From NCBI GenBank assembly GCA_026983835.1, contig JALSTH010000057.1, positions 1 through 57,471 of the forward strand: a stretch of 57,471 bases of DNA, read 5' to 3'. This DNA comes from Candidatus Zixiibacteriota bacterium (GTDB lineage Bacteria > Zixibacteria > MSB-5A5 > UM-FILTER-46-8). Below are positions 4,078 through 50,353 of this stretch, one piece after another. The position numbers and the translations under genes are program-made. The notes beneath the pieces were generated by a model. That model was given only the letters and a program-made list of their open reading frames with translations, was not told where the DNA came from and made no database searches. Position 1 is the stretch's first letter. Each line of letters starts with the position of its first letter.

Positions 4078-4148
4078 TGGGAGATCGTCCAATGGCAGGA
4101 CATACGGCTCTGGACCGTAGAATCGGGGTTCGAATCCCTGTCTCCCAG
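4078..4148 (+). tRNA. tRNA-Gln (anticodon CTG)
   Basis: A full cloverleaf of 71 bases: acceptor TGGGAGA/TCTCCCA, D stem GTCC/GGAC, anticodon stem TACGG/CCGTA with loop CTCTGGA, and T arm around TTCGAAT. U1-A72 and discriminator G fit tRNA-Gln. CCA is not encoded. Confidence 0.96.
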
Positions 4149-4196
4149 CTTTTTATTATTTATATGTTTTACACTAATTTTGGCGTAAATATCCCG

Positions 4197-5571: not shown

Positions 5572-5576
5572 AACAG

Positions 5577-6932
5577 TTACTCCTTTTTGCCTATAACAAT
5601 ATATTCAACAGGATATGCCTGCGAAGTAGCATTATGGTTGGACGCAAATCTTCCTGTTTCCTTATCTCTCTTCTGCGGTAATATTTTTAATGGTATCTCC
5701 CGCTTAATCACTCTATCTAACTTGAAACCAGAATATTGTATGATTTCTGCGAAAATTTCGGCATTGGGAATCTTGACCCCTTTTAATTCTGTATTGCCGA
5801 TAACATAACAGCATCTTCCTCCCTCTTTTAAAATTCTATAGCTTTCGTCAAATACCTGTTGTATATCAAGGAAGAATGTTTCAATTTCCCGCGCAATTTT
5901 CTCGCTATTTTTTTTCATTTTCTTAATAGTTTCTATAGCGATACTGCTTTTTAATTTCAAAAAGACATTGTTTTTCTTGAATGCAGAGCCTATAAAATTG
6001 CTTCTATATTCTTTTAGGTCATTTGCAAAATCCAGCCATAATGTGGATAATTGATGCAAGTCAGCATATTCATAACTAGTAACATAGGGACTTGAAGAAA
6101 TTATTATATCGACACTATTGCTTGGTACTTGTTGATGTTTAGCATCGCCTAAACATATTCTTAAATAATAATCGATATTTTTAATAACCTCCGATGATAT
6201 GACTTGGTGAAATTCTCTATTTCCCCTTTCCATTTTTCTCAAATGTTTTTTTAGGGTAGTAAACGGCTTCGCGGGTTTTTTATTAAAATCACGGGTCGGT
6301 TTAGTACTACCTTGAAGCCATATTGAACAATTTTTCAAAATATGGCTAAAAGCTAATAATAGAAAATCCCTAATATCCTTATCTTCTTCTTCTAAAATTA
6401 TTCTTAGTATTATACCTAATTCCCTCTTGTTATCCTCATTAAACCAATAATTTATTCTCTCAATATGTCTTTGAGGAATTAGTGGCTGTATTTCTTTGTT
6501 AGTATTAAAATTTAATGCTCCATCCAAAAAACCTAATTTCAGGTTAAAGGAATTGATTTTGGTTTGAAGATATGTTGGTTCTATCGGGGTTGATTTAACC
6601 TTTGTCATTAGATATGATATACCATTTATATCCGTTCCACTTGCGATAAATCCCCTTGATATTGCTGTTACAATCGTAGTTCCGCTACCCATAAAGGGAT
6701 CATTTATATGAGCATCATTGCCAGATATGTATTCATCCAAAAGTTTTTCTACTAATTGGGGAATGAACTTAGCGGGATAGCGATGATAGGAATGCGTCCA
6801 CTTTCCTGTTTGCGATGGCTTATAACCATTAAAGGACCATTCTTTTTCAACCTTAAGAGATCTAAATAATTCAATTATTTCATCCTTTAAAAGAAGTCTT
6901 TCTTTAACTTTCATTCGTTTATCTATTAACAA
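5577..6932 (-). CDS. Amino DNA methyltransferase (likely N4-cytosine), first gene of the R-M operon
   Basis: A 451-residue methylase. Motif X-like HRYPAKFIPQL (50-60), motif I DPFMGSGTT (78-86), a long middle part that probably reads the target, and motif IV SSPY (280-283) followed by TSYEYADLHQL. The Ser-rich SSPY loop favours N4-cytosine methylation. It ends with PVEYIVIGKK, a common C-terminal strand of this class. The frame can start at TTG (6932), 10 bases after AGGGA, or at ATG (6914), which has no clear site; the start is therefore uncertain by six codons. It heads the operon methylase-nuclease-methylase. A diverged relic of its last codons lies just upstream at 7065-7139. Confidence 0.85.
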   Translation of the reverse strand: MLIDKRMKVKERLLLKDEIIELFRSLKVEKEWSFNGYKPSQTGKWTHSYHRYPAKFIPQLVEKLLDEYISGNDAHINDPFMGSGTTIVTAISRGFIASGTDINGISYLMTKVKSTPIEPTYLQTKINSFNLKLGFLDGALNFNTNKEIQPLIPQRHIERINYWFNEDNKRELGIILRIILEEEDKDIRDFLLLAFSHILKNCSIWLQGSTKPTRDFNKKPAKPFTTLKKHLRKMERGNREFHQVISSEVIKNIDYYLRICLGDAKHQQVPSNSVDIIISSSPYVTSYEYADLHQLSTLWLDFANDLKEYRSNFIGSAFKKNNVFLKLKSSIAIETIKKMKKNSEKIAREIETFFLDIQQVFDESYRILKEGGRCCYVIGNTELKGVKIPNAEIFAEIIQYSGFKLDRVIKREIPLKILPQKRDKETGRFASNHNATSQAYPVEYIVIGKKE

Positions 6933-7011
6933 AATTAAATATTCCCTAATATATTCACGAAATTCTCATTGATTAATCACAATATTTTTTATACCGATTA
7001 AATCCCAATAA

Positions 7012-7139
7012 CTAGGATTCCTTTTCATTTTTCAGATATAATTCCTTCAAATCTTCAAATTTCACTATTGTCGCCCCTCTTCGCTTATCACGGCATATTC
7101 AACTGGATCGCTTGCGGAAAAATTATCATTTGTCCCATT
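7012..7139 (-). pseudogene. Relic of a second R-M operon: methylase tail joined to nuclease head
   Basis: On the minus strand a methylase end can be read (SASDPVEYAVISEE, stop 7065-7067), compare AYPVEYIVIGKK in the intact gene. At once follows a GTG-initiated nuclease start (residues KFEDLKELYLKNEK, frame 7065 to 7012, then a stop), compare NFEDLKQLYLRKEE. The same gene junction as at 5560-5600 is therefore present a second time in diverged form, with nothing else of either gene left. It is too diverged to be a fresh duplication. Confidence 0.75.
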
Positions 7140-7539
7140 CGATATGACTATCAATATGATATTTTTCGTAAATCTTTAAAATGTCTTCGCAAAATTCTAT
7201 CAATTTTTCAGCACCTTCTTTTTTAGCTATTTTGTATAAGCGAATAATTATTTTCTTGCCTATTTCGGTTTGGCTCAAGGATTTTTTCATTAAACTATGT
7301 TCAACGCATAAAGTTTGACCGTTTTCCATAATGGCTTTTCCTCCGAGGCGTACAGGTTCTATATAACCTATATCCAATTCCACTCCATCTTTCAATCCTT
7401 TCCCACATATAACACATTTATACCCATCGCGCCTGAGAATCGCCTCTTTCTGCTCCTGAGTAAAATCTTCCAAATCTTTATGATTAACATTTTGAGAATC
7501 ATTTAGATTGATAATTGATTTATTTCTATCTTTATTCAA
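7126..7539 (-). CDS. HNH-nuclease-like protein, probably inactive
   Basis: The protein carries the frame of an HNH endonuclease: RDGYKCVICG (first Cys pair), GYIEPVRLGG, ENGQTLCVEHS. In active relatives the second block reads DHI.P and the last HN; here these are GYI and HS, so the catalytic His and the final Asn are missing. The C-terminal half (EFCEDILKIYEKYHIDSHIEW) matches the conserved tail I associate with this HNH group. No ATG and no ribosome-binding site are present at the 5' end; only a TTG (7539) is available. The frame continues upstream, across a single TAA, into a 44-codon open stretch. Most likely a decaying gene of the R-M island. Confidence 0.6.
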   Translation of the reverse strand: MNKDRNKSIINLNDSQNVNHKDLEDFTQEQKEAILRRDGYKCVICGKGLKDGVELDIGYIEPVRLGGKAIMENGQTLCVEHSLMKKSLSQTEIGKKIIIRLYKIAKKEGAEKLIEFCEDILKIYEKYHIDSHIEWDK

Positions 7540-7542
7540 AGA

Positions 7543-7677
7543 TTAAGACCTATAATAAATCTGGTTAATTGACATTCCCAGAACATCATAATTATAAATT
7601 AAGATGTTGGAGTTATTGAAATGATAGGTAGGAACCCCTTTTAGATTTTTTTTTAATATTCCTGCGTTCGTATCCAT
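7543..7677 (-). pseudogene. 44-codon ORF in frame with the HNH gene, separated by one TAA
   Basis: ATG (7677) opens a frame of 44 residues (MDTNAGILKK...INQIYYRS) ending in TAA at 7543-7545. The frame is the same as that of the HNH gene, whose first possible TTG follows one codon later. This is either the N-terminus of one gene cut by a nonsense codon or a small separate protein. GGA lies 9 bases before the ATG. The function of the 44 residues is not recognised. Confidence 0.5.
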
Positions 7678-7769
7678 ATTTAATATTCCAATTTAACCTA
7701 TATATAAATATAATATATTAATTAGGAAAGTTGTATATATTTATTATTTTTTTGGGGATAATGGAAACT

Positions 7770-7807
7770 AAAAAAACTAAACGCCTCCCGTATTCGAGGG
7801 GAGGCGT
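7770..7807 (-). terminator. Rho-independent terminator after the M32 carboxypeptidase
   Basis: Perfect 9-bp stem ACGCCTCCC/GGGAGGCGT (7781-7789, 7799-7807) with a T-rich tail on the minus strand. The remaining bases 7678-7769 are AT-rich leader of the R-M island without a gene. Confidence 0.85.
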
Positions 7808-7849
7808 TGTTTTATAGGTTTATGTTATTCTTATGGTAATGTTTTTACA

Positions 7850-9367
7850 TCACACTCCGTAAAGGGGACCGAATTTGCTTTTCAGGTAATCCATAAATGG
7901 CTTGTGCGATAACGGTTTGCCGGTTACAACTTCAACCAATTTACCCGCACGATACCGCTGTCCGTGAGTGTGAATATTTTTATGCAGCCATTGCTTCAAC
8001 TCGCCGAAAGAGCCCCGCTCAAACTGCTCATCCAAATCCCCCAAATCCTCTTTCGCCTTGGCAAAAAATTGCGCCGAATAAAGATTCCCCAGTGTGTATG
8101 TCGGGAAATAGCCGATAAGCCCGTTGCTCCAATGAACATCCTGCAAACACCCTTTGGCGTCATCCGGTGGCGTTATATCCAAATAGTGCTTGAATTTCTC
8201 ATTCCAAACCGCGGGGATATCATCGACCTTCAACTCGCCGCGGAAAAAGGCATACTCCATCTCGAAACGAAGCATTATATGAAGGTTGTAGGTTACCTCA
8301 TCGGCTTCCACCCGAATAAATGACGGTTCCACATTATTCACCGCAAAGTGGAAATCCTCCAACTTCACATCGCGCAATGTCTCGTAAAATATCCCCTTGG
8401 CAAGCGGGAAGAAATATTTCCAGAAGGAAAGGCTTCTCCCCACCATATTTTCCCACATACGGGATTGGGATTCGTGTATCCCCAACGAGACCGCTTCGCC
8501 TCGCGGAGTTCCCCAATGCTTGGGGTCGAGACCCTGTTCGTAAAGGCCATGCCCGGCTTCATGCATTATGCCGAAAAAAGCATCATTAAAATGATGAGGG
8601 TTATATCTTGTGGTGATGCGCACATCGCCGACACCCAAACCGGTGCAAAAAGGATGAGTGGTTTTATCGAGCCGTCCGGAATCGAAATCGAACCCCATCG
8701 CCGAAGCTGCCATTTTGCCTAATATCTCCTGCTTATCTACCGGGTAATGGCGGCTTAAAATGGAAGTATCCGGCTTTTTTCCCGAGCCGATAACCCTGCC
8801 GACAAAATCGACCAATTCGACCCTGAAATCCTCCAAAACTTTTCCGATGGTCTCAACCGTCGCTCCGGGTTCGTAATCATCGATTAGAGCATCATAGGGT
8901 TCTTTGGGATAACCTACCGCTTCGGCATACTGACGCTTCAGCTCGATAACCTTTTCCAACCACGGCTTGAAGGACTCGAAATCGGATTTTTTACGGGCTT
9001 CGACCCAAGCGGCATCCGCCTTGACAGTAGTTTCGGCAGTTTCCATAACCAAACTTGTCGGAACTTTTTTCGCTTTTTCGTAAGCACGGCTTATCTCTCT
9101 GATATTTGTCTCCTCATCGGAGAATTCTTCCTTATCGTATCCGCCTGCCTTAAGTTCCCCGATGAGATCGCCCACTTTGGGATCAACAAACTTTTGATGT
9201 CCCATACCGACTAACATCGAAATCTGTTGTGCTCTGGAGTCGGAACCTTTTCGGGGAAGGTATGTCTTCTGGTCCCAATCCAAAACAGCGGCGCAAGAAT
9301 AGATGCGGCTGACTTCGACCGTCCTTTCAATCAGCTCCTTATAGGCTTTTTCCAATGATTCGCTCAT
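7850..9367 (-). CDS. M32-family metallocarboxypeptidase (carboxypeptidase Taq)
   Basis: A 505-residue cytoplasmic zinc carboxypeptidase that trims amino acids from peptide C-termini. The zinc motif HEAGH is at 269-273 and is followed by the family's HESQSRMWE helix (third ligand Glu). The N-terminal WDQ.TYLP and the C-terminal Arg/Tyr segment HTHGQRYRAGKL also match the family, and the length is the usual 500. The ATG at 9367 has AAGGAG 5 bases upstream and is preferred over a longer start 12 codons earlier. It is monocistronic, with a clear terminator. Assignment is firm. Confidence 0.95.
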   Translation of the reverse strand: MSESLEKAYKELIERTVEVSRIYSCAAVLDWDQKTYLPRKGSDSRAQQISMLVGMGHQKFVDPKVGDLIGELKAGGYDKEEFSDEETNIREISRAYEKAKKVPTSLVMETAETTVKADAAWVEARKKSDFESFKPWLEKVIELKRQYAEAVGYPKEPYDALIDDYEPGATVETIGKVLEDFRVELVDFVGRVIGSGKKPDTSILSRHYPVDKQEILGKMAASAMGFDFDSGRLDKTTHPFCTGLGVGDVRITTRYNPHHFNDAFFGIMHEAGHGLYEQGLDPKHWGTPRGEAVSLGIHESQSRMWENMVGRSLSFWKYFFPLAKGIFYETLRDVKLEDFHFAVNNVEPSFIRVEADEVTYNLHIMLRFEMEYAFFRGELKVDDIPAVWNEKFKHYLDITPPDDAKGCLQDVHWSNGLIGYFPTYTLGNLYSAQFFAKAKEDLGDLDEQFERGSFGELKQWLHKNIHTHGQRYRAGKLVEVVTGKPLSHKPFMDYLKSKFGPLYGV

Positions 9368-9646: not shown

Positions 9647-10756
9647 CTATTTCAGCAGTGTCATTCGTTTGGTGAAGACTTTATTTCCAGTATTTAATTT
9701 ATAGAAATAAATCCCGCTGGAATAATTGCCGGCATCCCAAACAACCGTATGCGAACCAGCCTCGACATTGCCGTTAACCAGCGTAGCCACTTTCTGTCCC
9801 ATTATGTTGTAAATATCCAGAGAGACATTGCCCGCCGTTGGAACATCAAAACTGATCGAAGTCTGCGCATTGAACGGGTTGGGATAGTTGTTTCCCAACA
9901 TAGCAACGGATGGAATTACAGAGGACTCTTCTTTCCAGCCAACAACACCCCAGGAATCAGCTGTTGATCCTTCAGGTTCAATAACTGTAAACTCCATATC
10001 GGCTTCATCCCAAGGATTATCGGGATAATCGCCGACAAACGCCATATATGTATATGTTCCGAGTGGAGCATAAGTTGGGACATACTGTTCGACATGTCTA
10101 CTGATAGTAAAATCTGCGGGAATTGTAACATCTATAAGGCTCAAGGGACCATATATCCCATAATCGGGGACATCAAGCATCATCCATAGATCAGCGGTAA
10201 CATCCTCATCTCCCTGATTTGTTAAAGTTCCCGTGTAGCCAAAAGACCCGCCCGCGGGGACTATGGTCGGATCCTCATCGGGAGTAATATCTATATCTAT
10301 GTTTTCATCAAAGGCTCCCAAAACTACCCAGCTATCGGCATCGCCGCCATTGGGTTCAACAACTGTAAATTGGAAAGATGAGGAATCGATGGGATTATTA
10401 GGATAATCGCCACAAAATGCCCAATAGGTATAAACACCCAAAGGAGCTCGACAAGGAACAAATTGGCTTATTTCCGCTGACAAAGTTTGATTCGGTGCAA
10501 GATGGACATCCTCATAAATATCAAGAGGACCAAAAATCCCGTGATCCGGGACATCCAACATAATCCAGACATCCGTTATTTGAGGTTCATCGGTATTGTT
10601 AGTTAAAATACCGGTGTAATTGAATGATCCACCTGCCGGTACGATAACGGGATCACTTTCAGGTATTAACTGGACTGAGACAGTAGGATCCTGTGCAAAT
10701 GCATTGGCAGTCAAGAAAAGAGCGAAGATCACAAGTAAAAACAGAAGCTTTTTCAT
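9647..10756 (-). CDS. Secreted protein with two VPAGGSF modules and a type IX sorting tail
   Basis: A 369-residue exported protein: signal peptide (residues 1-21), two copies of a module of about 115 residues that each begin with IVPAGGSF, continue with a TDVWIMLDVP-like strand and end in a (Y/W)TYWAFCGDYP-like strand plus a DSW segment, and then the sorting tail NYPNPFNAQTSISFDVP...MTLLK. The tail directs export by the type IX system and is normally cut off after passage through the outer membrane. The modules look like Ig-type beta sandwiches (inference). The ATG has AGGAGG seven bases upstream. Function unknown; probably a surface or extracellular adhesive or structural protein. Confidence 0.85.
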   Translation of the reverse strand: MKKLLFLLVIFALFLTANAFAQDPTVSVQLIPESDPVIVPAGGSFNYTGILTNNTDEPQITDVWIMLDVPDHGIFGPLDIYEDVHLAPNQTLSAEISQFVPCRAPLGVYTYWAFCGDYPNNPIDSSSFQFTVVEPNGGDADSWVVLGAFDENIDIDITPDEDPTIVPAGGSFGYTGTLTNQGDEDVTADLWMMLDVPDYGIYGPLSLIDVTIPADFTISRHVEQYVPTYAPLGTYTYMAFVGDYPDNPWDEADMEFTVIEPEGSTADSWGVVGWKEESSVIPSVAMLGNNYPNPFNAQTSISFDVPTAGNVSLDIYNIMGQKVATLVNGNVEAGSHTVVWDAGNYSSGIYFYKLNTGNKVFTKRMTLLK

Positions 10757-22939: not shown

Positions 22940-25585
22940 TTACTTCAGCAAAGTCATCCTCTTGGTGAAGACTTTATTTCCGGCGGTTAATTTGTAGAAA
23001 TAAATACCGCTGGAATAATTGCCCGCATCCCAAATAACCGTATGCGAACCGGCTTCAATATTGCCCTTGACCAGCGTAGCCACCTTCTGTCCCATTATGT
23101 TGTAAACTTCCAGAGAGACATTGCCTGCTGTAGGAACATCAAAGCTTATAGTGGTCTGCGCATTGAACGGGTTCGGATAATTACCAACCGAATATTTTTT
23201 GGGAATTGATACCTGCAAATTATTACAATTGTTATCAAAAGAATAATACAGGATCCCCCAAGCATTATCACCCATCTCGCCATTTTTCGCCGAGCCGGTT
23301 ATACTGAACGGAGCGCTTCCCTCACCCATCGCAAATGCCATATCATCCTGCGGCGATACCCTCACCAAATACTGATAATCACCCGCCGGCGCTACCTCCG
23401 GGACAATATGCTTAATCGTTCCATAAACGCCGCCATCAGGAAATAATCTAAAATCATAAGGACCGAAAACCGGACCGTAAATATAGCCGCCGGGAAGTTC
23501 CATCGCCGTCGCCAACCAAAGATATAAATTCTGACTTGTGGGATTGGTTACGGTGATGTCAACCGCAAGCGTATCACCCACCGATAGGATATTATCCGCT
23601 ATCGATGCCTCCACCCCGACAGTGGTCCGGACCGTCATCTCCGTGGGAATTATAACCCCATCCATCGAAGGCATATCCGACTCAAAATAAATATCCGCAT
23701 CATAGCTCCGATAATACAAACCAGTAGCATCGAATATCGCCGCCACAGTAATCGTATCCCCCGGATCCATATTAACCGAATCCGGCTCGAACGATATCCA
23801 AGAGGAATCGCACAGCATTTTAACATAAGATACCGAAAGAGCGCTGTTTTGATTACAGATTAAATTAAAATACTTCGTTTCCACCGAATCACGGAGAATA
23901 TCGAAAAGGAAATCGTCAGGATTGTAATCCAAGACTATATCCGCTGGCGGGATGACCGTCATTTCAACCGGAATCGGATCGCCCTGAAAACCGGGGATAT
24001 CGGAGGCAAAAGTAATGTCGGTTGTATAGGTGCTGTCGAAGGGCAGTTCGCCGGGATTGAAAGTTGCGGTAACCATAACCGTATCGTTAGGTTCCATTTC
24101 CACATAATCCGGGTCGAGCGTGACCCAAGGCGCATTGCAAAATGAAAGGACATAACCGCTACTATCACCGGAGGTTATTTGATAATTCCGAAAAGTAGTC
24201 AGATTTTGGGCGATAGTAAAAATAAAGTCCTCGGGATTATAAATTACTCCCCCTGATGGCAATGGATTATAATAAAATGCTCCCATATCGGCAATTGTGC
24301 CATCCGGATCCGGCGGGGAGTTCGGATCGCCGGCATCTATACAGGGAGACCCTTCCTGCAGATGATAATCCCCATTATCTGGGTTCACAAAAAGCGGATC
24401 GGCATCGATATTCCCCTCACCTCCCCATCCCCCTTGAATATCGGAATAAGTCACATCATAAACGCTGTTATCCAAATCAATCTCATTGCCATATGGCGCG
24501 GAGTCAGCCCACAAAATTGTATTTATTACTGTTAGATTAGAATTAATCCTACAACGAATCCCACCACCACGATAATCAGCTGAATTATTGCTAATGGTGT
24601 TATTGGTTATAGCCATGTTAGTTTCATAGCAGTAAATCCCACCACCTTCATAAGCTGAATTATTGCTGATAGTATTACCGCTTATGGTCGGGTCGGAACT
24701 ATTGCAGTAAATCCCGCCGCCATTAAAAGCGGAGTTTCCGGTAATAGTATTATTGTTTATCATTGGGCTGGAATTAGAAATAAAGTAAATCCCGCCACCA
24801 TAATCAGCTGAATTATCGCTGATGGTGTTATTCATTATGGTTGGGCTGGAATCGCAGCAGTAAATCCCGCCACCTTCATGATTATTATTATAACCATTTG
24901 CAGAATTTTCGCTGATAGTATTATTAGTTATGTCCGAGTTAGAAAAATTGCAGTAAATCCCGCCACCAGTGTAAGCTGAATTATTACTAATGGTATTACC
25001 GTTTATGGTTGGGTCGGAATTAATGCAGTAAATCCCGCCGCCACCCCAAGTTCCTAAATTATTACTAATGGTATTATAGCTTATAATCGGGTCGGAATGA
25101 TCGCAGAAAATCCCGCCTCCATAATCAGCTGAATTATCGCTGATGGTATTATTGCTTATACTAGGATTAGAATAGCTGCAATAAATAGCACCGCCATCGT
25201 TATCGGGCTCATTTCCGGTAGCCCTTCCATATTCGATATGGCAGTAAGAAATTCTTGAAATGTCGCTGGCAGAAAAAAATCTTATCCCCCACCAACCTTC
25301 CGATGTGTTTGCGGCGGTGAAAACAATCGAATCGCTTTCGGTACCGGCGGCAATCAAAGTCGCCGAAGTCTCCACATTAAACTTATAATGCCCTTGAAAT
25401 ATCACCGATACACCCGGATCGATTATCAAAGTGGAATCGGTCGGGACAGTCAACTCCCCAACAACATTATACGGACTATTATCAACAGTCCACTCCCCCG
25501 AAACATTCCCGCTTACATCGGTAGCCGAAGCGATAGCAGGGATCGCTATCAACCAAACAAGCGAGAGCAATAACAACTTTTTCAT
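22940..25585 (-). CDS. Large secreted beta-helix protein with type IX sorting tail
   Basis: An 881-residue exported protein. After the signal peptide (1-20), an entry segment (TLIIDPGVSVIFQGHYKF) leads into nine GGGIYC-type turns with NNTISNNSA spacers (about 130-345), the pattern of a right-handed parallel beta-helix. A SPCIDAGDP closing segment follows, then two repeats with a DPDYVEMEPNDTV pattern (ASPM/choice-of-anchor-like), a divergent copy of the VPAGGSF-like module, and the sorting tail (NYPNPFNAQTTISFDVP...MTLLK). GGAGG precedes the ATG. Such proteins are usually surface-exposed adhesins or polysaccharide-binding or degrading factors; no catalytic residues could be pinned down. Confidence 0.88.
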   Translation of the reverse strand: MKKLLLLSLVWLIAIPAIASATDVSGNVSGEWTVDNSPYNVVGELTVPTDSTLIIDPGVSVIFQGHYKFNVETSATLIAAGTESDSIVFTAANTSEGWWGIRFFSASDISRISYCHIEYGRATGNEPDNDGGAIYCSYSNPSISNNTISDNSADYGGGIFCDHSDPIISYNTISNNLGTWGGGGIYCINSDPTINGNTISNNSAYTGGGIYCNFSNSDITNNTISENSANGYNNNHEGGGIYCCDSSPTIMNNTISDNSADYGGGIYFISNSSPMINNNTITGNSAFNGGGIYCNSSDPTISGNTISNNSAYEGGGIYCYETNMAITNNTISNNSADYRGGGIRCRINSNLTVINTILWADSAPYGNEIDLDNSVYDVTYSDIQGGWGGEGNIDADPLFVNPDNGDYHLQEGSPCIDAGDPNSPPDPDGTIADMGAFYYNPLPSGGVIYNPEDFIFTIAQNLTTFRNYQITSGDSSGYVLSFCNAPWVTLDPDYVEMEPNDTVMVTATFNPGELPFDSTYTTDITFASDIPGFQGDPIPVEMTVIPPADIVLDYNPDDFLFDILRDSVETKYFNLICNQNSALSVSYVKMLCDSSWISFEPDSVNMDPGDTITVAAIFDATGLYYRSYDADIYFESDMPSMDGVIIPTEMTVRTTVGVEASIADNILSVGDTLAVDITVTNPTSQNLYLWLATAMELPGGYIYGPVFGPYDFRLFPDGGVYGTIKHIVPEVAPAGDYQYLVRVSPQDDMAFAMGEGSAPFSITGSAKNGEMGDNAWGILYYSFDNNCNNLQVSIPKKYSVGNYPNPFNAQTTISFDVPTAGNVSLEVYNIMGQKVATLVKGNIEAGSHTVIWDAGNYSSGIYFYKLTAGNKVFTKRMTLLK
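24530..25200 (-). repeat. Coding repeats of the beta-helix
   Basis: About nine imperfect units of roughly 70-80 bases, each encoding GGGIYC and NNTISNNSA-like turns. They are coding repeats, not a CRISPR array: spacing varies and the frame stays open. Confidence 0.8.
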
Positions 25586-35763: not shown

Positions 35764-36822
35764 CTATTTTAGCAAAGTCATTCTCTTGGTGAAGACTTTA
35801 TCGCCGGCGGTTAATTTGTAGAAATAAATCCCACTGGAGTAATCGCCGGCATCCCAAAAGACCGTATGCGTCCCAGCTTCGACATTACCGTTGACCAGCG
35901 TAGCCACCTTTTGTCCCATAATATTATAGACTTCCAAGGAAACTTTACTGGCTGTTGGAACATCAAAACTAATCGAAGTCTGCGCATTGAACGGATTCGG
36001 ATAGCTGTCGGTCAAAGTGTATTCGCTTGGGATTTCATTATTGTCTGTCCCGAAACCACCTTCGCAATACCATTCATTAACACCTGAATCGATACGACCC
36101 GTAGTTACCGTGAACGGAAAGCAGGATGAATCTAATATCACATTCGGATGATAGCCGCAATAGGCACAGTATTGATAAGTCCCCGCAGGCACATAAACGG
36201 GAACATCCTGCACCAGATGCGCATTTACATATTCATCCGGGTCCAACGGAATATTGTTAAAATGCCCTTGCTCGTAAAAGTGGTTGTTATACTCGGCACC
36301 ATACCAAACATCGGTTGTAATCGTTGTATCGCAAGGACTACCGATAGTGCCTGTCAGACCGAAACTGCCACCGGCAGGAACTTCCACCGGATCATCATCC
36401 GGCACTATCTCCACATCCGCCACACAGCCGGTTTGATCGAAGTAAAATGCCCCTATATCCGCAATGGTGCCATCGGGATCAAGCGGGGAGTTCGGATCGC
36501 CGGCATCTATGCAGGGAGACCCCTCCTGCAGATGATAATCGCCATTATCAGGATCAACAAACAGCGGATCGGCATCGATATTCCCCTCGCCTGACCATCC
36601 TCCCTGAATATCGGAATAAGTCGCATCTATAACGCTGTTGTCCAGATAAATCTCATTGCCATCTGGCGCGAAGTTAGCCCATAAAATTGTATTCACTACT
36701 ATTGCATTAGACGAATAGGAGTAAATCCCGCCACCATTACCATAAATACCATTGGCAGAATTTTCGCAATAAATCCCACCTCCGTCAGAATCAGCCGAGT
36801 TACTGCTGTATGTGGGCGCAGG
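35764..36822 (-). pseudogene. 5'-truncated secreted beta-helix protein with type IX sorting tail
   Basis: The minus-strand frame is open from 36822 to the stop at 35764 and encodes two GGGIYC turns, the conserved YSDIQGGWSGEGNIDADPLF and SPCIDAGDP segments, one VPAGGSF module and the sorting tail. It has no signal peptide and no good start: the first candidate is a GTG at 36696 inside the beta-helix, and a TAA lies just upstream of 36822. The missing part abuts the 3' end of the Lon-like gene, so the gene has lost its head. It is close to the 22940-25585 gene over the beta-helix end and the tail. If expressed at all it would lack export. Confidence 0.75.
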
Positions 36823-41658: not shown

Positions 41659-43128
41659 ATGTCCGAACGACCGGAAATCATCCAAGCGAGATACGATAAA
41701 TTATCCAAACTTCAAGAGCTGAATATAACCGCTTTCGCATATAAATTCCATCGCACTCACCTTTCAGCCGAGATAAAGGACAAATACACGGAATTGGAAG
41801 GTTCGGGCGAAAAAGTGCGGGTTGCCGGCAGGTTGATGGCGATTCGCGGCCATGGCAAATCTTCATTCGGGCATATCTGGGACAACGACGGGAAAATCCA
41901 ATTTTACATTAAATATGATATTGTCGGCGAAGAGCAATACAACTTTTTCAAAAAACTTCTGGATATCGGCGACATAATCGGTATCGAAGGCGAAGTTTTC
42001 AAAACCAAGACCGGCGAAATAACCGTTAAAGTCGAGAAAATAGAGATACTGAGCAAATCGCTTTTGCCTCTACCCGAAAAATGGCATGGCTTGGTGGACA
42101 AGGAAGCCCGTTATCGCCAGCGCTACCTCGATTTAATCAGCAACCCGAAGGTCAAGGAAATTTTTATCAAACGGACTAAAATGTATAAGGCGTTCAGGGC
42201 TTTCCTTGATTCGCAAGGCTTTCTGGAAGTGGAAACCCCTATCCTGCAACCTATCTACGGCGGCGCTTTCGCCAAACCGTTCCAAACCCACCTGAACGCT
42301 CTCGACCTACGAATGTATCTCCGTATCGCCGATGAACTTTACCTCAAACGCCTTATCATCGGCGGGTTCGAGAAAGTTTATGAGATTTGTAAAGATTTCC
42401 GCAACGAAGGGGTCGATCGCCTTCACAATCCCGAGTTCACTCAGATTGAGCTTTATTCCGCTTACTGGGATTATCGCGATATGATGGATTTCACCGAGCG
42501 GATGCTGGAATTTGTCGCCGGTGAAGTTTGCGGGACGACCGAGATAGAATATGAGGGCAGGGCTATTTCTTTCAAGGCTCCGTTTAAGCGGGTAAGTATG
42601 TTGGAGGTGACAGCGGAGAAAACCGGCGTCGATTTCAGGGGGATGGATTATGCGGAGGCTAAAAAATATGCCGAATCGCTTGGGGTGGATGTCGGCGGAA
42701 AGCGGAATTGGGGGCAGGTTGTGGAGGAGGTCTTTTCTGAGCTGGTTCAAGCGGATTTGGTTCAACCGACTTTCATTACCGATTTCCCGGCGGATATTTC
42801 CCCTTTGGCGAAGCCTCATCGCGATAAACCGGGACTTTCGGAGCGTTTCGAGGGGTATATTGCGGGCGAGGAGGTTTTCAATGCTTTCTCGGAACTGAAC
42901 GATCCGATTATTCAAAGGGAGAAATTCGCCGAATTGCAGAAGCTCCGCCGGTTGGGGGATGAGGAAGCGCCGCCTATCGATGAGGATTTCCTTACGGCGA
43001 TGGAATATGGGATGCCGCCGACTGCGGGTTTGGGGTGTGGTTTGGATCGACTGATAATGATTTTGACCGACTCTCATTCCATCCGCGAGGTAATCTTCTT
43101 CCCCCTGATGAAACCGGAAGAGAAATAA
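41659..43128 (+). CDS. lysS: Lysyl-tRNA synthetase, class II
   Basis: A 489-residue class II enzyme that charges tRNA-Lys, whose gene lies at 12564. The N-terminal OB-fold binds the anticodon (VRVAGRLMAIRGHGKSSFGHIWD). Motif 1 is around FLEVETPILQPIYGGAFAKPF, motif 2 YEICKDFRNEGVDRLHNPEFTQ and motif 3 GLGCGLDRLIMILTD. AAGGAG precedes the ATG by five bases. No T-box leader is seen. It converges on the type III R-M genes with no clear terminator between. Confidence 0.98.
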   Translation: MSERPEIIQARYDKLSKLQELNITAFAYKFHRTHLSAEIKDKYTELEGSGEKVRVAGRLMAIRGHGKSSFGHIWDNDGKIQFYIKYDIVGEEQYNFFKKLLDIGDIIGIEGEVFKTKTGEITVKVEKIEILSKSLLPLPEKWHGLVDKEARYRQRYLDLISNPKVKEIFIKRTKMYKAFRAFLDSQGFLEVETPILQPIYGGAFAKPFQTHLNALDLRMYLRIADELYLKRLIIGGFEKVYEICKDFRNEGVDRLHNPEFTQIELYSAYWDYRDMMDFTERMLEFVAGEVCGTTEIEYEGRAISFKAPFKRVSMLEVTAEKTGVDFRGMDYAEAKKYAESLGVDVGGKRNWGQVVEEVFSELVQADLVQPTFITDFPADISPLAKPHRDKPGLSERFEGYIAGEEVFNAFSELNDPIIQREKFAELQKLRRLGDEEAPPIDEDFLTAMEYGMPPTAGLGCGLDRLIMILTDSHSIREVIFFPLMKPEEK

Positions 43129-43219
43129 CGCTGTTAATTAAGCAAAACAATATTTTATTATTGGAAAAATCGATAAATGAATTACCATTTTTTCTCTCGC
43201 GGAACGAAAAGATAATAGC

Positions 43220-46036
43220 TTATCGAATTTTAGGTTGGGTTTTTCCATTTAGTAATTGTTTATCAAATTCATCCTCAAATTTTTCTTTTAATCGCTCATT
43301 GAAAAAGGGAAGTCCAATTAATTTATAATTTTTGCTTTCTGCTTTTAATAAATTACCATTTCCGTATTTTTTGGAAATTTGCTCTAAAAATTTTTCTTTC
43401 CAGCCTTCTTTACTTTCTTTAAATCCGCCTTCTTTGTCCGCAAATTGCCCACCCTTTGGTTCAATAAAAATTTGATAATACAAATTACGATTTTTGCCTT
43501 TTAAAAAGAGCAAAAAATCCGGTTCAAAACCACGACCTCGCTCAAAATCGTAAATTTTATACACTTCTTCATTTCTAAGTAAATAAACCTCATTATATTC
43601 ATCCCGTAAATTTCCTATTTTATTTTCAATAAACTTTACTAATTCTCTTTCTTCACTTGTTCCATTAAATCCATTTAACACATACCACTTATTCTGCAAT
43701 AAACTTTCTTCCAATCTTTTACTTTCTTGATCAATAAGCACACTTTTCTCTTTTTCCTTTCCGAATAATTCCTCAAAAGAAAAAGGCGAAAATTCTTTTG
43801 TTCCTAAATATGGATTTGCTATTTCTTTAAGTTTTTTGGTAAATTCATCAAAGAAAACTAATAATAATTCTAACTTCTCATTATTGTCTAAGTCGTCTAG
43901 TTTTTTTTTATCGTTTGGCATAGTTATATTGATCTTAAACTTAAAATTCCCGATAACTTTTTCGCTGATAAAATCGTCGATACTTTCTATACCCAATTCC
44001 TCCCGTAAATTATCAAATCGTAAAAGCGAAAAATCCGCCATAGCCTTTTTATTTATTGCTTTTTTTATGATATGCTTCTCAAAATCTGAAAATTTTACGC
44101 TTATTGTCCTTTTGTCTTTTTTCCCGGTTTCCGCAAGCGTTTCATCTCTGTCTTTATCTAAACTAATTTGCTGTTCTTTTAAGTTTATTCCTCTTATCTC
44201 ATATTTAAAAACTAAATTTTCTCTTAGCTCCTTAATAGCCATCTTTTTTCTTTCCGGATTATTTATTCTTTCATTTTTCCAAACTTTTACTTCCTTAAAA
44301 AATACGCTTTGCTTAAAATCTTCTTTTAATGCAAATTTTTTAATCACACGATTATCTTGAATAAATCCTCTATTTTTAAGTTCCCTTTTTAGCTCATCAA
44401 GATAGCGAACATCATTATCGCTATGATAATAAAATTCTTCTAATACCCTAATTGGATTTTCTAAGTCATTATCAAACTTTCTTTTATTTTTCTCATATCC
44501 GTTATAATCAAAAGGGAAATATCGTACGCCACGACCAATAAGCTGTATTTCTTGAACCGTTGCTTGTCCGGCAATTCTTTGACCGTTTCGATGACTTTCA
44601 TCTCTACCTTCATAAAGACGCACAATATCAAAAAGATTTAATACATCCCATCCCTCGGTTAACCTTTTGACGGTAAAAATCGCCCGAATGTGATTATTTT
44701 TATCTTCCAAACTATTAAGCAATTGCTCTTGTTCCGCAGTTGTTTTTTCTTTCGTGGTTGCTTTATTATCTTTTGAGTTGGTTATAATACAATTTCTTTC
44801 CGCGAAATTATATTTTAGAAAATCAACTATTTCTCGGATATTTATCTTTTCATCCTTAATAAAGGCAAGCATTTGCTTTACCCGGCTTCTGCCTTGTTCA
44901 TACACCTTAAACAAATTTTGTTGATCTTCTTTTATACTGCTCTCAACATTTTTCAAAAAATCAAAATCAGAAACTTTTAAATCAGCAATAAGGGAAATGA
45001 ATTCCTCATAATCCTTTTTTGATTCTTCAATAAACTTGCTTCTAAACAAGATCACAGGCTTAAAATTGGCGATTTTATTTTTGAGAGCAATTTGATGACG
45101 ATACCAGTTGAACAGCAAAGCAAGTAAGATCTTTTCTTTCTTTTTGAGTGAGGTGGAAACGAGATTTATTTCTTTGGTATATCCGGCATTTAAAAAATCG
45201 ACAAGTTCAAATTTATAAATAGTTTTTGTACGATATTTTTCTTGCACCTCTGTATTTTTGGGTATGGTCGCGGTAAACTCCAATAAAACATTTTTATTTT
45301 CCGTTTCTTGTTCAGCTTTGCCTTTTCTTAAAATTTTATTTATCACCGTATCTTCCCAGCTTTTCTCAACATCCTTTTCACTTGCATTTTTTTTCAATTC
45401 CATTGGCAAATTTATTTCCCCTTGTCGGTTTTTCCTTGTTGATGCGTTAAGGTGATGAGCCTCATCGCCGATCATCACCAAATCCATCTTTTGTAAATCT
45501 TCAAGCGTAACGGAATTTTCTTTTGCCAAATAAACCGCGTTATGAAGCTTGTGAATTGAAGTAAATTTAATCTGAATATCGTCATTGTCATCGAAAGTTT
45601 CCACCTTGCGGATATTGATGGTTTTATCGTCAATTACAATGGTTTGCCGGAAAAGATATTTGGTATGATTTTTGTTGATAAAATTGTTTTCGGTTTTATC
45701 AACAATGTTATTTTGATTTACAAAGAAAATAAAATGCCGATAGCCTTGTTTATAATAATATAAAATTAAAGCGGCCATAAGCAGGGTTTTGCCGGTGCCG
45801 GTCGCCATATTAAACATCAAATGGGTTGGCTCGTTTTTGTCATCTACAAATTTATCTTTCCGTTTTTCAAAAACATTAAAATACTGTAAAGCGTTTTTTT
45901 GCCATGTCCAAAAATCGTGCTTTAAATTATTTTTTATATAATCCGGTACCTCAAAAGATTCTCCGGCAATATCAAGATAGGTTTTGATTTTGTAAAATAA
46001 ATCGTCATTCATAAATAATTTATTTTGTTCGGTCAT
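43220..46036 (-). CDS. Type III restriction subunit Res (helicase-nuclease)
   Basis: A 938-residue SF2 ATPase with a C-terminal nuclease. Walker A lies in [15 protein letters not shown], the DEAH box is GDEAHHL, and motif VI is in QLIGRGVRYFPF. Near the end FEPDFLLFLKG and YQIFIEPKGGQF give the Asp...Glu-X-Lys of a PD-(D/E)XK nuclease. With Mod it cuts DNA after ATP-dependent movement between two unmethylated sites. It starts two bases after mod. Long A/T runs set it apart from the neighbouring housekeeping genes. Confidence 0.9.
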   Translation of the reverse strand: MTEQNKLFMNDDLFYKIKTYLDIAGESFEVPDYIKNNLKHDFWTWQKNALQYFNVFEKRKDKFVDDKNEPTHLMFNMATGTGKTLLMAALILYYYKQGYRHFIFFVNQNNIVDKTENNFINKNHTKYLFRQTIVIDDKTINIRKVETFDDNDDIQIKFTSIHKLHNAVYLAKENSVTLEDLQKMDLVMIGDEAHHLNASTRKNRQGEINLPMELKKNASEKDVEKSWEDTVINKILRKGKAEQETENKNVLLEFTATIPKNTEVQEKYRTKTIYKFELVDFLNAGYTKEINLVSTSLKKKEKILLALLFNWYRHQIALKNKIANFKPVILFRSKFIEESKKDYEEFISLIADLKVSDFDFLKNVESSIKEDQQNLFKVYEQGRSRVKQMLAFIKDEKINIREIVDFLKYNFAERNCIITNSKDNKATTKEKTTAEQEQLLNSLEDKNNHIRAIFTVKRLTEGWDVLNLFDIVRLYEGRDESHRNGQRIAGQATVQEIQLIGRGVRYFPFDYNGYEKNKRKFDNDLENPIRVLEEFYYHSDNDVRYLDELKRELKNRGFIQDNRVIKKFALKEDFKQSVFFKEVKVWKNERINNPERKKMAIKELRENLVFKYEIRGINLKEQQISLDKDRDETLAETGKKDKRTISVKFSDFEKHIIKKAINKKAMADFSLLRFDNLREELGIESIDDFISEKVIGNFKFKINITMPNDKKKLDDLDNNEKLELLLVFFDEFTKKLKEIANPYLGTKEFSPFSFEELFGKEKEKSVLIDQESKRLEESLLQNKWYVLNGFNGTSEERELVKFIENKIGNLRDEYNEVYLLRNEEVYKIYDFERGRGFEPDFLLFLKGKNRNLYYQIFIEPKGGQFADKEGGFKESKEGWKEKFLEQISKKYGNGNLLKAESKNYKLIGLPFFNERLKEKFEDEFDKQLLNGKTQPKIR

Positions 46037-46038
46037 AC

Positions 46039-47967
46039 TTACTTTTTGGGGATGTTGTAAAATCCCTCGCTTAAAGCGATGTCATCTTTGGAGAGATTAT
46101 ATTTTTTGTCCGCTCGTTCGCTGAAATTAACATACATTTGATTCATATCCAGCATTTCCACAAACAGTTTTTTTTGTTCGTCTAAACTTAAATTTCTAAA
46201 TCCTTCTTCTCTGATGGTTTTTTCCTTAAATTCTTTTGTTTTCACATTGTAATTGAGGAAATATCGCTCATAAAGTTCGTCAAAGAGCATCTCCAATTCT
46301 TTCAAGCTTTTCGCTTTCAATATTTTTTCTTTGGCTTCCTCGTTCCACTTGGCAAGCTCTAAATAAACAAAATCCCCTCCACCTTTCCAATTTACAGATT
46401 TTGAAATTCCTCCTTGTTCCCCCGCAATAACTTTTTTAAGTCTTTCAACGGTAATATTGTCGATATAATCCATTTGTTCAATTCCAATATATTGTCTATC
46501 CATTTTGTGGGCTACGGCACAAGTGGTTCCAGAACCGATATGATAGTCAAGGATTATGTCCTTTGGCTGTGTCGCAATATCAAATATATGTTTCATCATT
46601 TTTTCGGGTTTTGGATAGGCAAAAGCTTTATAATCTAATAATGATGCTATTTCTTTTGCGCCTTCGGAATTTATAAATTTTATTAATGCTCTATAGGGGA
46701 TTTTTCTAGATCGTATATTATCATCATTATCAACATATTGATATTGTTTTATATAAATTTTTTCTTTTTTGTCATCAATTTCAATAAAACCATTTTTTAA
46801 TCCCCATATAAATTTTTTCTTACTCCATCTCCAAGTATTAGGTTTCCCAAATTTACCGCCAGGATATATTTCTTTTCCTTTTGGCAATTTTATTGGATAA
46901 TCTAAACTTGTGGAATAGCTCCCTTTATAATCTAGATCTCTCAAATAATATTTCCCTCGTTTTTCAAAATATTCGTCTTTATACCTATATTTTTTATCTT
47001 TATTTGTATCAACGGTCATTTTATTAATTACAAATTGTTCTTGCTTTTTCGTATAAAATAAAATATAATCGTATTCAATTGCCAAAAATTGGCTGTCGTG
47101 TCCGCCTCCCGTTTTTGCAATTCTTATCATATTACAAATAAAATTATTTCTTTCAAAAATATCATCCATCAAAACTTTTAAATAGGCTTGTTCGTTATCG
47201 TCGCACTGCAGAAAAATAACGCCATCATTTCTTAATAGCTCTTTTGCTATTTCCAACCTATTTTTCATAAAAGTCAGCCAAGTGCTATGATTGAAATTAT
47301 CATTATATTTAAAGCTATCATTACCTGTATTATAAGGCGGGTCAATGTAAATCAGCTTTATCTTGCCGGTAAATTGCTCTTTAAGGCTATGTAGGGCGAG
47401 TAAATTATTCCCTCTGATAATTAAATTTTCTTTTATTGTGCCGTCTTTATCTCTTTTAAGTTCTTTTACTTTTTCCTCGCCTTTGGCGGTATATCTTTTC
47501 CAATTTACCAGCGCTTTTGGATCAAAAAGCCGATCGATTTCATCCTTTGCTAAAATTTCATTAAAAAATATCTCGTTTCTTTTTTGGTCTTCTTTGGTCA
47601 TTCCACCCTCAAGCACGCAATCCTTGAAGGGCCAGTCCAAAACAACTTCATTTCTTTCACTTAATAATTTATTGCCAATCCGCAAGCCGATTTTGTTTTT
47701 ATATTGCGTATAGGAATTGTCAAGTTTGTTTTCATCTAAGAAAAATTTGAGATCGTTTTGCTTCAAGACAAAAACATCTTTTATCTTAATAAAAAATTTA
47801 TCCTTTGTTTCTTCGTTGTTTAGCAAAAGATCGATTAGTTTTTCATCCAACTTATCGATTAAATCTTTCAAAAGTGTTTGGTTAAGCTCTTTTGACTTCT
47901 CATCCCAAAGACGGGAATCTTGTTTTAGAACTTTTATAATTGTTGCCTTAAACTTTTTATTATCCAT
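46039..47967 (-). CDS. Type III DNA methyltransferase Mod
   Basis: A 642-residue adenine-N6 methylase that determines the specificity of the type III system. Motif IV is IYIDPPYNTGNDSF (catalytic DPPY), and motif I follows later as LDYHIGSGTTCAVAH, the IV-before-I order of beta-class enzymes including Mod proteins. The segment between them is the target-recognition domain. Cofactor and target cannot be read from the sequence. The ATG has a weak GGCGG upstream, and a strong promoter lies in front. Mod is needed by Res for cutting and protects the host DNA alone. Confidence 0.92.
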   Translation of the reverse strand: MDNKKFKATIIKVLKQDSRLWDEKSKELNQTLLKDLIDKLDEKLIDLLLNNEETKDKFFIKIKDVFVLKQNDLKFFLDENKLDNSYTQYKNKIGLRIGNKLLSERNEVVLDWPFKDCVLEGGMTKEDQKRNEIFFNEILAKDEIDRLFDPKALVNWKRYTAKGEEKVKELKRDKDGTIKENLIIRGNNLLALHSLKEQFTGKIKLIYIDPPYNTGNDSFKYNDNFNHSTWLTFMKNRLEIAKELLRNDGVIFLQCDDNEQAYLKVLMDDIFERNNFICNMIRIAKTGGGHDSQFLAIEYDYILFYTKKQEQFVINKMTVDTNKDKKYRYKDEYFEKRGKYYLRDLDYKGSYSTSLDYPIKLPKGKEIYPGGKFGKPNTWRWSKKKFIWGLKNGFIEIDDKKEKIYIKQYQYVDNDDNIRSRKIPYRALIKFINSEGAKEIASLLDYKAFAYPKPEKMMKHIFDIATQPKDIILDYHIGSGTTCAVAHKMDRQYIGIEQMDYIDNITVERLKKVIAGEQGGISKSVNWKGGGDFVYLELAKWNEEAKEKILKAKSLKELEMLFDELYERYFLNYNVKTKEFKEKTIREEGFRNLSLDEQKKLFVEMLDMNQMYVNFSERADKKYNLSKDDIALSEGFYNIPKK

Positions 47968-48001
47968 TTTAACCGCCGATATAAATTAAAAAGTTATAAG
48001 C

Positions 48002-48030
48002 ATTATATTATTCCGCCCCCCTGCAATCAA
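48002..48030 (-). promoter_or_regulatory. Predicted promoter of mod-res
   Basis: On the minus strand TTGATT, a 17-base spacer and a perfect TATAAT, about 35 bases before the mod ATG. Confidence 0.7.
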
Positions 48031-48057
48031 GTCTATTTTACGGCAACATTAGCCTTA

Positions 48058-48186
48058 TTATCTTCCGTCCGGTTGTCCCTTGATAATCGTCAAGCCGGGA
48101 TTCTTTATCCGTTTATGTAGGTATTCAAGCTCTTTCTTGCGCCCCAAAAATGGGATTTCGGGAGGGGTTGTAGTAAGTTTATCCAT
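48058..48186 (-). pseudogene. N-terminal fragment of a P-loop ATPase
   Basis: ATG (48186) opens 42 residues containing PFLGRKKELEYLHKRI and LTIIKGQPDGR, then stop. FLGRKKEL followed by an (I/V)xG strand is the start of archaeal/bacterial AAA ATPases with an xGRxxEL entry motif; the frame ends where the Walker A GxxGxGK(S/T) should be. A ribosome-binding site is not obvious. Probably a gene cut by rearrangement. Confidence 0.55.
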
Positions 48187-48227
48187 AAACAAACAATATC
48201 AATCCAACACAGCTTTGTCAATCAATA

Positions 48228-48280
48228 AATTAACCGCCGGGAATAAGGTATTCACCAAGCGTGCTACTTTATTGAAGTAA
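48228..48280 (+). pseudogene. Relic of a type IX sorting tail
   Basis: Seventeen codons read KLTAGNKVFTKRATLLK and stop, matching the last residues of the intact cargo genes (KLTAGNKVFTKRMTLLK) with one change. Nothing of the rest of the tail is present upstream. A terminator follows 22 bases later. Confidence 0.75.
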
Positions 48281-48301
48281 TCCAAACCACATTACTTTTT
48301 C

Positions 48302-48332
48302 AAGGCTGTCCCTTTGATGGGGCAGCCTTTTT
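48302..48332 (+). terminator. Rho-independent terminator after the sorting-tail relic
   Basis: AAGGCTGTCCC (48302-48312) pairs with GGGGCAGCCTT (48319-48329), one G-U pair, followed by TTTTT. Confidence 0.85.
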
Positions 48333-48547
48333 ATATTGGATTTATTCCACTCCTATAGGGCAAAACCAATAATTTTATCGGACAAAACAAGTCGGATTTA
48401 ACAATATCAAGGTTGATGGGATTATCTAATTTTCGGTCGCTCATAGAGTTAGAGTTTTCATTATTATTTTTTGGGGAGTCGGTTCGGTATTTGTTTCCTT
48501 ATGGGGAAAGCAAAAGAAACAAAAAAAACCGCAAAAGGGGGAGAATA

Positions 48548-49141
48548 ATGCAGAACAGAAAAAGGTTGATATTCAGCAGTTTAATTTTAACTGCGTTGCT
48601 TTTCGGCGTGGTTATGGTCAACGGATGCGGAAAACAAGCGCCGGTGGCTCCAACCATAACTCAGGATGCCCAGCAAGCCCCTTTTGGAACAGAGCAAATC
48701 CAATCGAGATGGGGACGGGTATATTATTTCTCATTTTATGATGGAGTCTATGGCTGGGTTAATGATGGTGGCGGTAGTATGGAATTTGACGGCAGCGGCT
48801 ATGAGGCGGAATTGATAATCCCGGAAGGGGCTGTTGAAGATTGGACCGAACTCACCTGTCAGGGGAGCTCTTACTACACAGAAAATGGTATGGTTTATAC
48901 CTTCGATTTTGGGCCCAATGGATTGGTTTTCGATGTCCCGGTTATATTAAGGATAGAAGCGGATGCAATAGAAGATTACGATGAAAACGACCAATTCGAC
49001 GGCGCGGAGTTGGTTTATTGGAATCCCACAACTCAACAATGGGAACCGCAGGAGTTCGAGGATGATTCAGATGGCGACGGGTATTACGACTTTCAAATAA
49101 ATCATTTCTCCAGATATGCAATAGGCGGGCGTAGCAATTAG
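48548..49141 (+). CDS. Lipoprotein with ZU5-like domain
   Basis: A 197-residue exported lipoprotein. The signal sequence runs to a lipobox-like VNGC with Cys27, then a flexible linker and a beta domain. GYEAELIIPEGAV, GLVFDVPVILRIEA, AELVYWNPTTQQWEPQE and the final HFSRYAIGG resemble a ZU5-type domain as I know it in bacterial surface proteins. ATG at 48548 is chosen over a longer frame from 48413 because GGGGGAG lies four bases upstream and the signal peptide starts there. Role unknown; attachment to the outer membrane is expected. Confidence 0.8.
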   Translation: MQNRKRLIFSSLILTALLFGVVMVNGCGKQAPVAPTITQDAQQAPFGTEQIQSRWGRVYYFSFYDGVYGWVNDGGGSMEFDGSGYEAELIIPEGAVEDWTELTCQGSSYYTENGMVYTFDFGPNGLVFDVPVILRIEADAIEDYDENDQFDGAELVYWNPTTQQWEPQEFEDDSDGDGYYDFQINHFSRYAIGGRSN

Positions 49142-49456
49142 TAAAATCAAAAGCGTGTAGCCTTAAGTAAATCACCGGTCACTCAGCGGCATAGGCAAAG
49201 GGCGGGCTTATCAACCCGCCCTTATTTTAGTCCGGTGCCATAAATCTACTTGTTTGACCTTTTCAATAATAGTACTAATTCTATGCTACAAAATTAATAT
49301 TAAATAATAAACCCTTTTGCCGATATGGAAAATAATAGGTCTTTAAATCTTTTAACCGTTCATTAGTGATCAAGCCAATCGAGTTTAAAAGATTAGACCC
49401 ATAAGGAACCGATAATTATTTACATTTGATGCCTATTTCAGATTGATAATATTTTA
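49142..49456. other. Intergenic region
   Basis: It holds the GGGCGG hairpin at 49198-49228; the rest is AT-rich sequence with no gene recognised. Confidence 0.5.
49198..49228 (+). terminator. GGGCGG-type terminator after the lipoprotein gene
   Basis: AAGGGCGGG/CCCGCCCTT perfect 9-bp stem followed by ATTTTA. Confidence 0.75.
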
Positions 49457-50353
49457 ATGGGAAAATTCTCCGAAAAGCAGATAATGTTATCCGGCAGGAT
49501 ATTCAGGCTTGCGGGGTTCGGTAAATTATCGCAATCCTTACAGCCGAAGGATAATATCCGTATAACCACCACCCACTATGTAAAGAGACAGGATTCGAAC
49601 AACTTCGATAGAATTGTCCGTTATCTAAACGAAACCAGAAAAATAATCACTCCCAAGGAATTTTTCCGCTTTTATAAGCATAACGACAGCAACACCGAAT
49701 TAAAAGGCAGAAATCTATTGATGACTTTTGATGATGGCCTTTATTCCAGCTATACGGCGGCAAAAGAGATATTGTCAAAATATGGGATTAAGGCGATATT
49801 CTTTGTCCCCACAATGATATTGGAACTGAAATCCAAAACGGAGATGTTATCCTTTGCTACAGAAAATATATATCATAATGAAATACCGCCGAGCCAATTG
49901 AGCGAAGAGGAATACGTGGTAATGTCGAAGGATGATTTATTGGATTTGAAAAAAGACGGCCATTATATCCTTCCGCACACCCATACCCATTGCGATATAT
50001 CCAAAATTAAAAATGAAGAAGGTGTGAAAAGGGAATTGATTAAACCTAAGCATATTTTGGAAGAGCTGTTGGGTGAGCCGATCGAAGCGATGGCGTTTCC
50101 CGACGGGAGCGAGAAAGTGGTCAGCAGTTATGCCTATGCTCAAATTAAAAAGTTCTACCGCTTTGCTTTTCCAGCCTTAGTGGGTGTAAACCATACCCGC
50201 ACCAATCCATATTTCTTCCACCGCGATTGTATCCACGCCCATTATCCGCTTTCCTTTGTAAAGAACATATTGGACGGTGTCTATGACCCATATTATTATC
50301 TCAAGATGAGGCACCTTAAATCCAAAGTAAAAGCGGAAGTCCTCAAGCAATAA
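49457..50353 (+). CDS. Polysaccharide deacetylase (NodB-fold)
   Basis: A 298-residue metal-dependent deacetylase. Motif 1 is MTFDDGLYSSY (the two Asp bind metal or act as base), motif 2 LPHTHTHCDIS (metal His pair), and AFPDGSEKVV lies at the third motif. It removes acetyl groups from N-acetylated sugars in peptidoglycan or another polysaccharide. No signal peptide is evident, so a cytoplasmic substrate such as a lipid-linked precursor is possible. The ATG lacks a clear ribosome-binding site; a later in-frame ATG at codon 10 is the alternative. It converges on cobA-hemD with one base between the stops. Confidence 0.87.
   Translation: MGKFSEKQIMLSGRIFRLAGFGKLSQSLQPKDNIRITTTHYVKRQDSNNFDRIVRYLNETRKIITPKEFFRFYKHNDSNTELKGRNLLMTFDDGLYSSYTAAKEILSKYGIKAIFFVPTMILELKSKTEMLSFATENIYHNEIPPSQLSEEEYVVMSKDDLLDLKKDGHYILPHTHTHCDISKIKNEEGVKRELIKPKHILEELLGEPIEAMAFPDGSEKVVSSYAYAQIKKFYRFAFPALVGVNHTRTNPYFFHRDCIHAHYPLSFVKNILDGVYDPYYYLKMRHLKSKVKAEVLKQ

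Follow-up and report, generated by a model that had tools for sequence, protein, structure and literature searches.

The window, by which we mean the whole 57,471-nucleotide stretch analysed here, is contig C57 (JALSTH010000057.1) of the draft genome of a Candidatus Zixiibacteriota bacterium (G000; GCA_026983835.1), which comprises 134 contigs and 2.53 Mb. On this contig the lysyl-tRNA synthetase gene lysS (41659–43128, plus strand), assigned from Pfam tRNA-synt_2 and from comparison of its neighbourhood, forms the left flank of a junction. It is followed, in this order, by the Res and Mod genes of a type III R-M pair, a 42-codon ORF, the orphan tail of a type IX secretion cargo gene, an intrinsic terminator and an intact gene for a predicted lipoprotein (48548–49141, plus strand), which is the right flank. 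The lipoprotein assignment is our own reading of a putative signal sequence; the gene has a Pfam ZU5 match just under the cut-off and no NCBIfam match. Its best relatives, 51–55% identical, are found in G001–G003 on other contigs and beside other neighbours. The 42-codon ORF (48058–48186, minus strand) and the cargo tail (48227–48280, plus strand) are the two fragments on opposite strands that a preliminary description of this DNA had reported next to the R-M genes, and both are present. No RNA gene was found that could have served as an insertion point: there is no Rfam match within 43000–49500, and the three tRNAs of the window all lie outside this region. Elsewhere in the window (4197–6932, minus strand), two DNA-methylase-like genes (5577–6932 and 4197–4889) lie on either side of a gene that PADLOC does not match (4867–5571) and adjoin tRNA-Gln at 4078–4149. 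The arrangement suggests another R-M or methylase locus.

Both subunit genes of the type III pair are carried by the minus strand. Mod (46039–47967, 642 aa) matches PF01555 (6.8e-48), PF12564 (6.2e-15) and the PADLOC model MTase_III (2e-207). The adjoining Res (43220–46036, 938 aa) matches PF04851 (1e-24), and PADLOC REase_III spans its residues 22–931. As in known type III systems, mod and res are adjacent and carry the expected domains, namely an N6/N4 methylase domain and the type III N-terminal region in Mod and helicase and putative nuclease regions in Res, and from their domain content we read them as a complete type III R-M pair with predicted activity. A promoter-like site (TTGATT, 17, TATAAT) lies before Mod at 48002–48030 on the minus strand; it comes from a consensus scan only, which returned 8 such sites in the region against 5.2 expected.

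The GC content is 31% in the R-M pair and 29% in the 91-base gap after lysS, compared with 48.5% in lysS itself and 46% in the predicted lipoprotein gene. Proteins resembling Mod at E ≤ 1e-40 occur in three of 132 genomes of the phylum, the present one counted, and are absent from all three family relatives. Relatives of Mod were found on five viral contigs (45–60% identity) and, at E ≤ 1e-20, in 495 plasmid records, which with a single exception fall below 60% identity. The plasmid relatives include 6.8-kb Salmonella plasmids; the one that was read is mobilizable and has the same gene order. From these observations we infer that the pair was horizontally acquired. The related pair of genome G082 (L249:6198-12349), in which Mod reads as two overlapping ORFs (6198–6788 and 6761–8128), has a serine recombinase directly downstream, whereas the pair described here has no adjoining mobility gene, and the ORFs of the window include no recombinase beside the insert. 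The longest word that the insert's two edges have in common is 9 bases, both in direct and in inverted orientation, which was matched in 240 and 179 of 409 random draws, respectively.

The orphan tail reads KLTAGNKVFTKRATLLK and ends with a stop codon at 48278–48280. It was compared with three intact sorting-domain genes of the window (9647–10756, 22940–25585 and 35764–36696), each of which ends at its lower coordinate. When anchored on the stop codon, the DNA of the tail is identical to the gene at 22940 at 44 of 54 positions, to that at 35764 at 40 of 54 and to that at 9647 at 36 of 54. The agreement falls to 18, 20 and 20 of 66 bases, respectively, on the 5′ side of the tail and to 17, 7 and 9 of 40 bases on its 3′ side. 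Because the flanking bases disagree on both sides, the match is confined to the coding tail. Within its own genome the tail is matched with an E value of 9e-8, and its resemblance to intact cargo genes beyond chance is solid. The corresponding peptide is the last 17 residues of the sorting domain of the 22940 gene, with one residue different. TIGR04183 is present in all three intact genes and PF18962 in both of those scanned with Pfam. Thus the tail matches the end of the type A sorting domain of type IX secretion, as found in the intact 22940 gene. Unlike a full TIGR04183/PF18962 cargo gene, however, 48227–48280 holds just the last 17 of about 75 residues, and the remainder of the domain is missing, as is the entire cargo.

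Read off the alignment with the 22940 gene, seven codons of the tail are changed and six of these changes are synonymous, so that the tail would have been under protein selection until recently and loss of the cargo body is probably recent. Behind the tail, an 11-pair stem followed by a T-run (48302–48329, plus strand) folds at −21.3 kcal/mol (z −4.5), and none of 200 shuffles folds as well. The claim that the last 17 codons of a cargo gene survive here with a terminator is borne out by the DNA match with its sharp edge and by this hairpin, although the hairpin is not common to the intact cargo genes at 22940, 9647 and 35764. Neither gene scrap functions as a protein; the predicted lipoprotein gene may still be insulated by the terminator from transcription arriving from the left.

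When the complete sorting domain was used as the query, 126 matches at E ≤ 1 were obtained in the 2.5-Mb genome, only the best of which were listed; the ends of type IX sorting domains thus form a dispersed repeat family in G000. Repeats this numerous, in a draft of 134 contigs, raise the question of whether the joins are errors of assembly. However, the nearest copies found share only about 80% identity with the tail, and there is therefore no long exact repeat to mislead the assembler at this point. We regard an artefact of this kind as very improbable.

The second fragment is far less certain. The ORF runs on the minus strand from an ATG at 48186 to a TAA at 48058, reads MDKLTTTPPEIPFLGRKKELEYLHKRIKNPGLTIIKGQPDGR and carries the motif GRKKEL. 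It was scored against a profile built from 34 N-termini in which a GR motif precedes a P-loop; they were picked by pattern from the loci compared, and 8 of them look Clp-type. On this AAA-type profile the ORF scored 13.4 bits, higher than any of 60,000 random ORFs and any of 20,000 shuffles of the peptide. The alignment covers residues 12–27 only, however, and the motif had already been noticed when the profile was chosen. As a sign of ATPase origin the score is suggestive, not proof. The PFLGRKKELEYL of the ORF resembles the motif that lies ahead of the P-loop in the AAA_16 and ATPase_2 families (PF13191, PF01637), as in a 397-aa protein of contig C72. In contrast to members of these families, the ORF has neither a P-loop nor a match in the model libraries. 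It could be the N-terminal stub of an AAA/STAND-type ATPase.

Database comparisons did not support this origin. No match to the ORF was found in Pfam up to E 10, nor in NCBIfam or PADLOC; PHROGs returned a single match with an E value of 0.22, and reading through the frame change gave no match in Pfam, NCBIfam or PHROGs. The best E values were 4 against plasmids, 6 against phages and 0.6 against the PDB. The family holds no intact copy, and the best of the weak matches elsewhere in a set of 20 genomes has an E value of 0.02. Weak matches lie in G017 and G029; that in G017 is antisense to a 673-aa ORF and was taken as chance. Across the 132 genomes of the phylum, the two non-self matches (E 0.016 and 0.022) do not amount to a credible homologue, so the intact ATPase beginning with this peptide, for which the preliminary description had suggested a search, was not recovered there. 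The ORF contains no Walker A motif and its frame stops at GQPDGR; in another frame the region continues with TGRKIIRLMLP up to a stop codon, and this stretch may be a P-loop in decay or have no meaning. Thus, of the ATPase said to be cut at its P-loop, the GRKKEL-bearing ORF and its score above the controls stand, while no Pfam or NCBIfam family match was found and the "cut" is read from the position of a stop codon.

The ORF may also be considered without any ATPase. A second promoter-like site (TTGACA, 17, TATTGT; 48193–48221, minus strand; consensus scan only) is squeezed into the interval 48187–48226, 6 bases from the ATG of the ORF and 6 from the edge of the tail, and points at the R-M operon. 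The ORF, which itself points towards Mod, might then be a leader of that operon under its own promoter-like site, or a chance ORF, and the cargo gene would be the only truncated gene. Chance alone would readily supply such a frame: shuffled versions of the intergenic stretch contain on average 0.79 ATG-initiated ORFs of at least 42 codons, and 55% of the shuffles contain at least one. ORFs of this length are thus expected here by chance, the ATPase origin is unproven, and the lack of a Pfam or NCBIfam match and of a credible homologue agrees with a chance or leader ORF. On the other hand, the profile score exceeds all 80,000 controls, and the GC content of the ORF is 44% against 31% for Mod. 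Its codon use (0.10 bits per codon) lies within the host range (real host windows: 0.205, sd 0.117; 19% score as low or lower) and fits host genes and not the R-M genes, yet 23% of open antisense windows, taken in one frame, score higher. Taken together, we consider that an ORF that was never an ATPase has a serious chance of being correct, somewhat short of even. That the ORF is an accessory gene of the R-M system was also considered and rejected: in L234, L235 and L249, the related loci that were read, Mod has no such gene upstream, although three loci do not make a systematic count. Naming a gene from 42 codons that hold a single good motif calls for caution.

The gene order around lysS was compared with that of other genomes. 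Directly downstream of lysS, on the same strand, lolC/E is found in 16 of 18 other genomes of the class (11 of 11 and 5 of 7 in two sets); the 18 are 20 genomes less G000 itself and G014, whose contig end cuts lysS down to a fragment. One genome of the first set, G003, has a contig that breaks off within lolC/E. The two exceptions are G009, with about 1.5 kb between lysS and lolC/E, and G017, where lolC/E is absent from the 2.3 kb read; they imply that the adjacency can be lost without R-M genes. Among more distant genomes of the named collection, whose retained lysS loci are 46–54% identical, 12 of the 80 retained loci have lolC/E within reach downstream of lysS. The cluster extends further in the family relatives G001 and G002, where lolD, mcsA, mcsB and a Clp gene follow. 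NCBIfam supports lolCE above the cut-off and the protein arginine kinase above one cut-off, whereas LolD and McsA are best matches below their cut-offs. ClpC is our own name for the Clp protein, for which the best NCBIfam model is ClpB, below its cut-off.

In G000 this cluster is in three pieces. lysS is on C57, lolC/E is on C27 (L057:7941-9164) without lolD beside it, and lolD-mcsA-mcsB-clp is on C108 (L240:3052-7836). One of the two breaks coincides with the R-M pair. At the other, where lolC/E and lolD have parted, the stretches read show no R-M gene either between the two or next to them, and the gap upstream of the moved lolC/E showed nothing beyond chance among the sequences compared. 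Sorting-domain repeats were also examined as general break points and rejected, as, among the cluster edges seen in G000, a tail lies near the R-M side of the lysS break only and none was found at the edges of lolC/E or lolD. The interval from lysS to the lipoprotein gene, which the preliminary description had proposed to compare, is absent from the three family relatives, where lysS is followed by lolC/E and the lipoprotein gene lies elsewhere.

The sharp edge of homology at 48227, together with the lost adjacency of lysS and lolC/E, identifies the region as a join. There is good support for a break-and-join junction that holds one certain gene remnant. We favour, and hold to be probable, the reading that a type III R-M pair acquired by horizontal transfer occupies a rearrangement junction here. 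Illegitimate recombination would have joined DNA carrying Res and Mod in behind lysS. The body of the cargo gene would have been removed either in this step or by a subsequent deletion at this site, and the 42-codon ORF, probably the first part of a second gene, would have stayed behind between R-M pair and tail. Two of the earlier claims are narrowed accordingly by the data: the join stands, but the "hot spot" amounts to one junction without recurrence, and of the "at least two genes lost" the cargo gene is certain and the ATPase gene possible but not established.

The order of events could also be the reverse. The scraps would then be older than the R-M pair, which would have landed in a region already decayed after the breakup of the cluster, with nothing left to damage. 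The second break of the cluster, where no R-M gene was seen, is in keeping with this order, and the GC step near 48058, between the R-M pair and the ORF, would fit an edge. However, the tail differs from its paralogue almost only by synonymous changes and can therefore not have been long free of selection. This order of events appears rather doubtful to us, and a junction that the R-M pair occupies remains the preferred reading.

That the R-M insert caused the break, as the preliminary description proposed, is plausible but unproven: the edges of the insert share no repeat beyond chance, and the genomes searched include none of the same genus. Moreover, as lolC/E and lolD have also parted where no R-M gene was seen, the breakup of the cluster was possibly independent of the R-M genes. 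Both fragments unchanged in relatives without R-M genes, which were held to speak against a link to the insert, were found by DNA in none of 38 other genomes, and G002 and G003 match over the tail alone. In the most far-reaching version, a single event is assumed in which entry of the R-M pair split the cluster kept in the class (lysS, lolC/E and lolD, with mcsA, mcsB and clpC in the family), deleted the cargo body and rejoined the ends. We consider it unlikely. If true, it would amount to the one-step breakup of a housekeeping cluster by acquisition of a defence system, and sorting-domain repeats could offer places for such breaks.

Genome rearrangements linked to R-M gene complexes are known from works cited in PMC4176335. 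Here likewise an R-M pair lies exactly at a break in gene order, although the cause and the order of events put forward for this junction are hypothetical. We rate the locus as an ordinary scar in the genome: rearrangement scars with R-M genes next to them are known, truncated genes are expected at such joins, and neither a new system nor a new mechanism is called for. For this little-known lineage, it provides a clear case of a gene lost recently next to an acquired R-M pair, and shows that the lysS-lolC/E neighbourhood kept in the class has been broken in G000.
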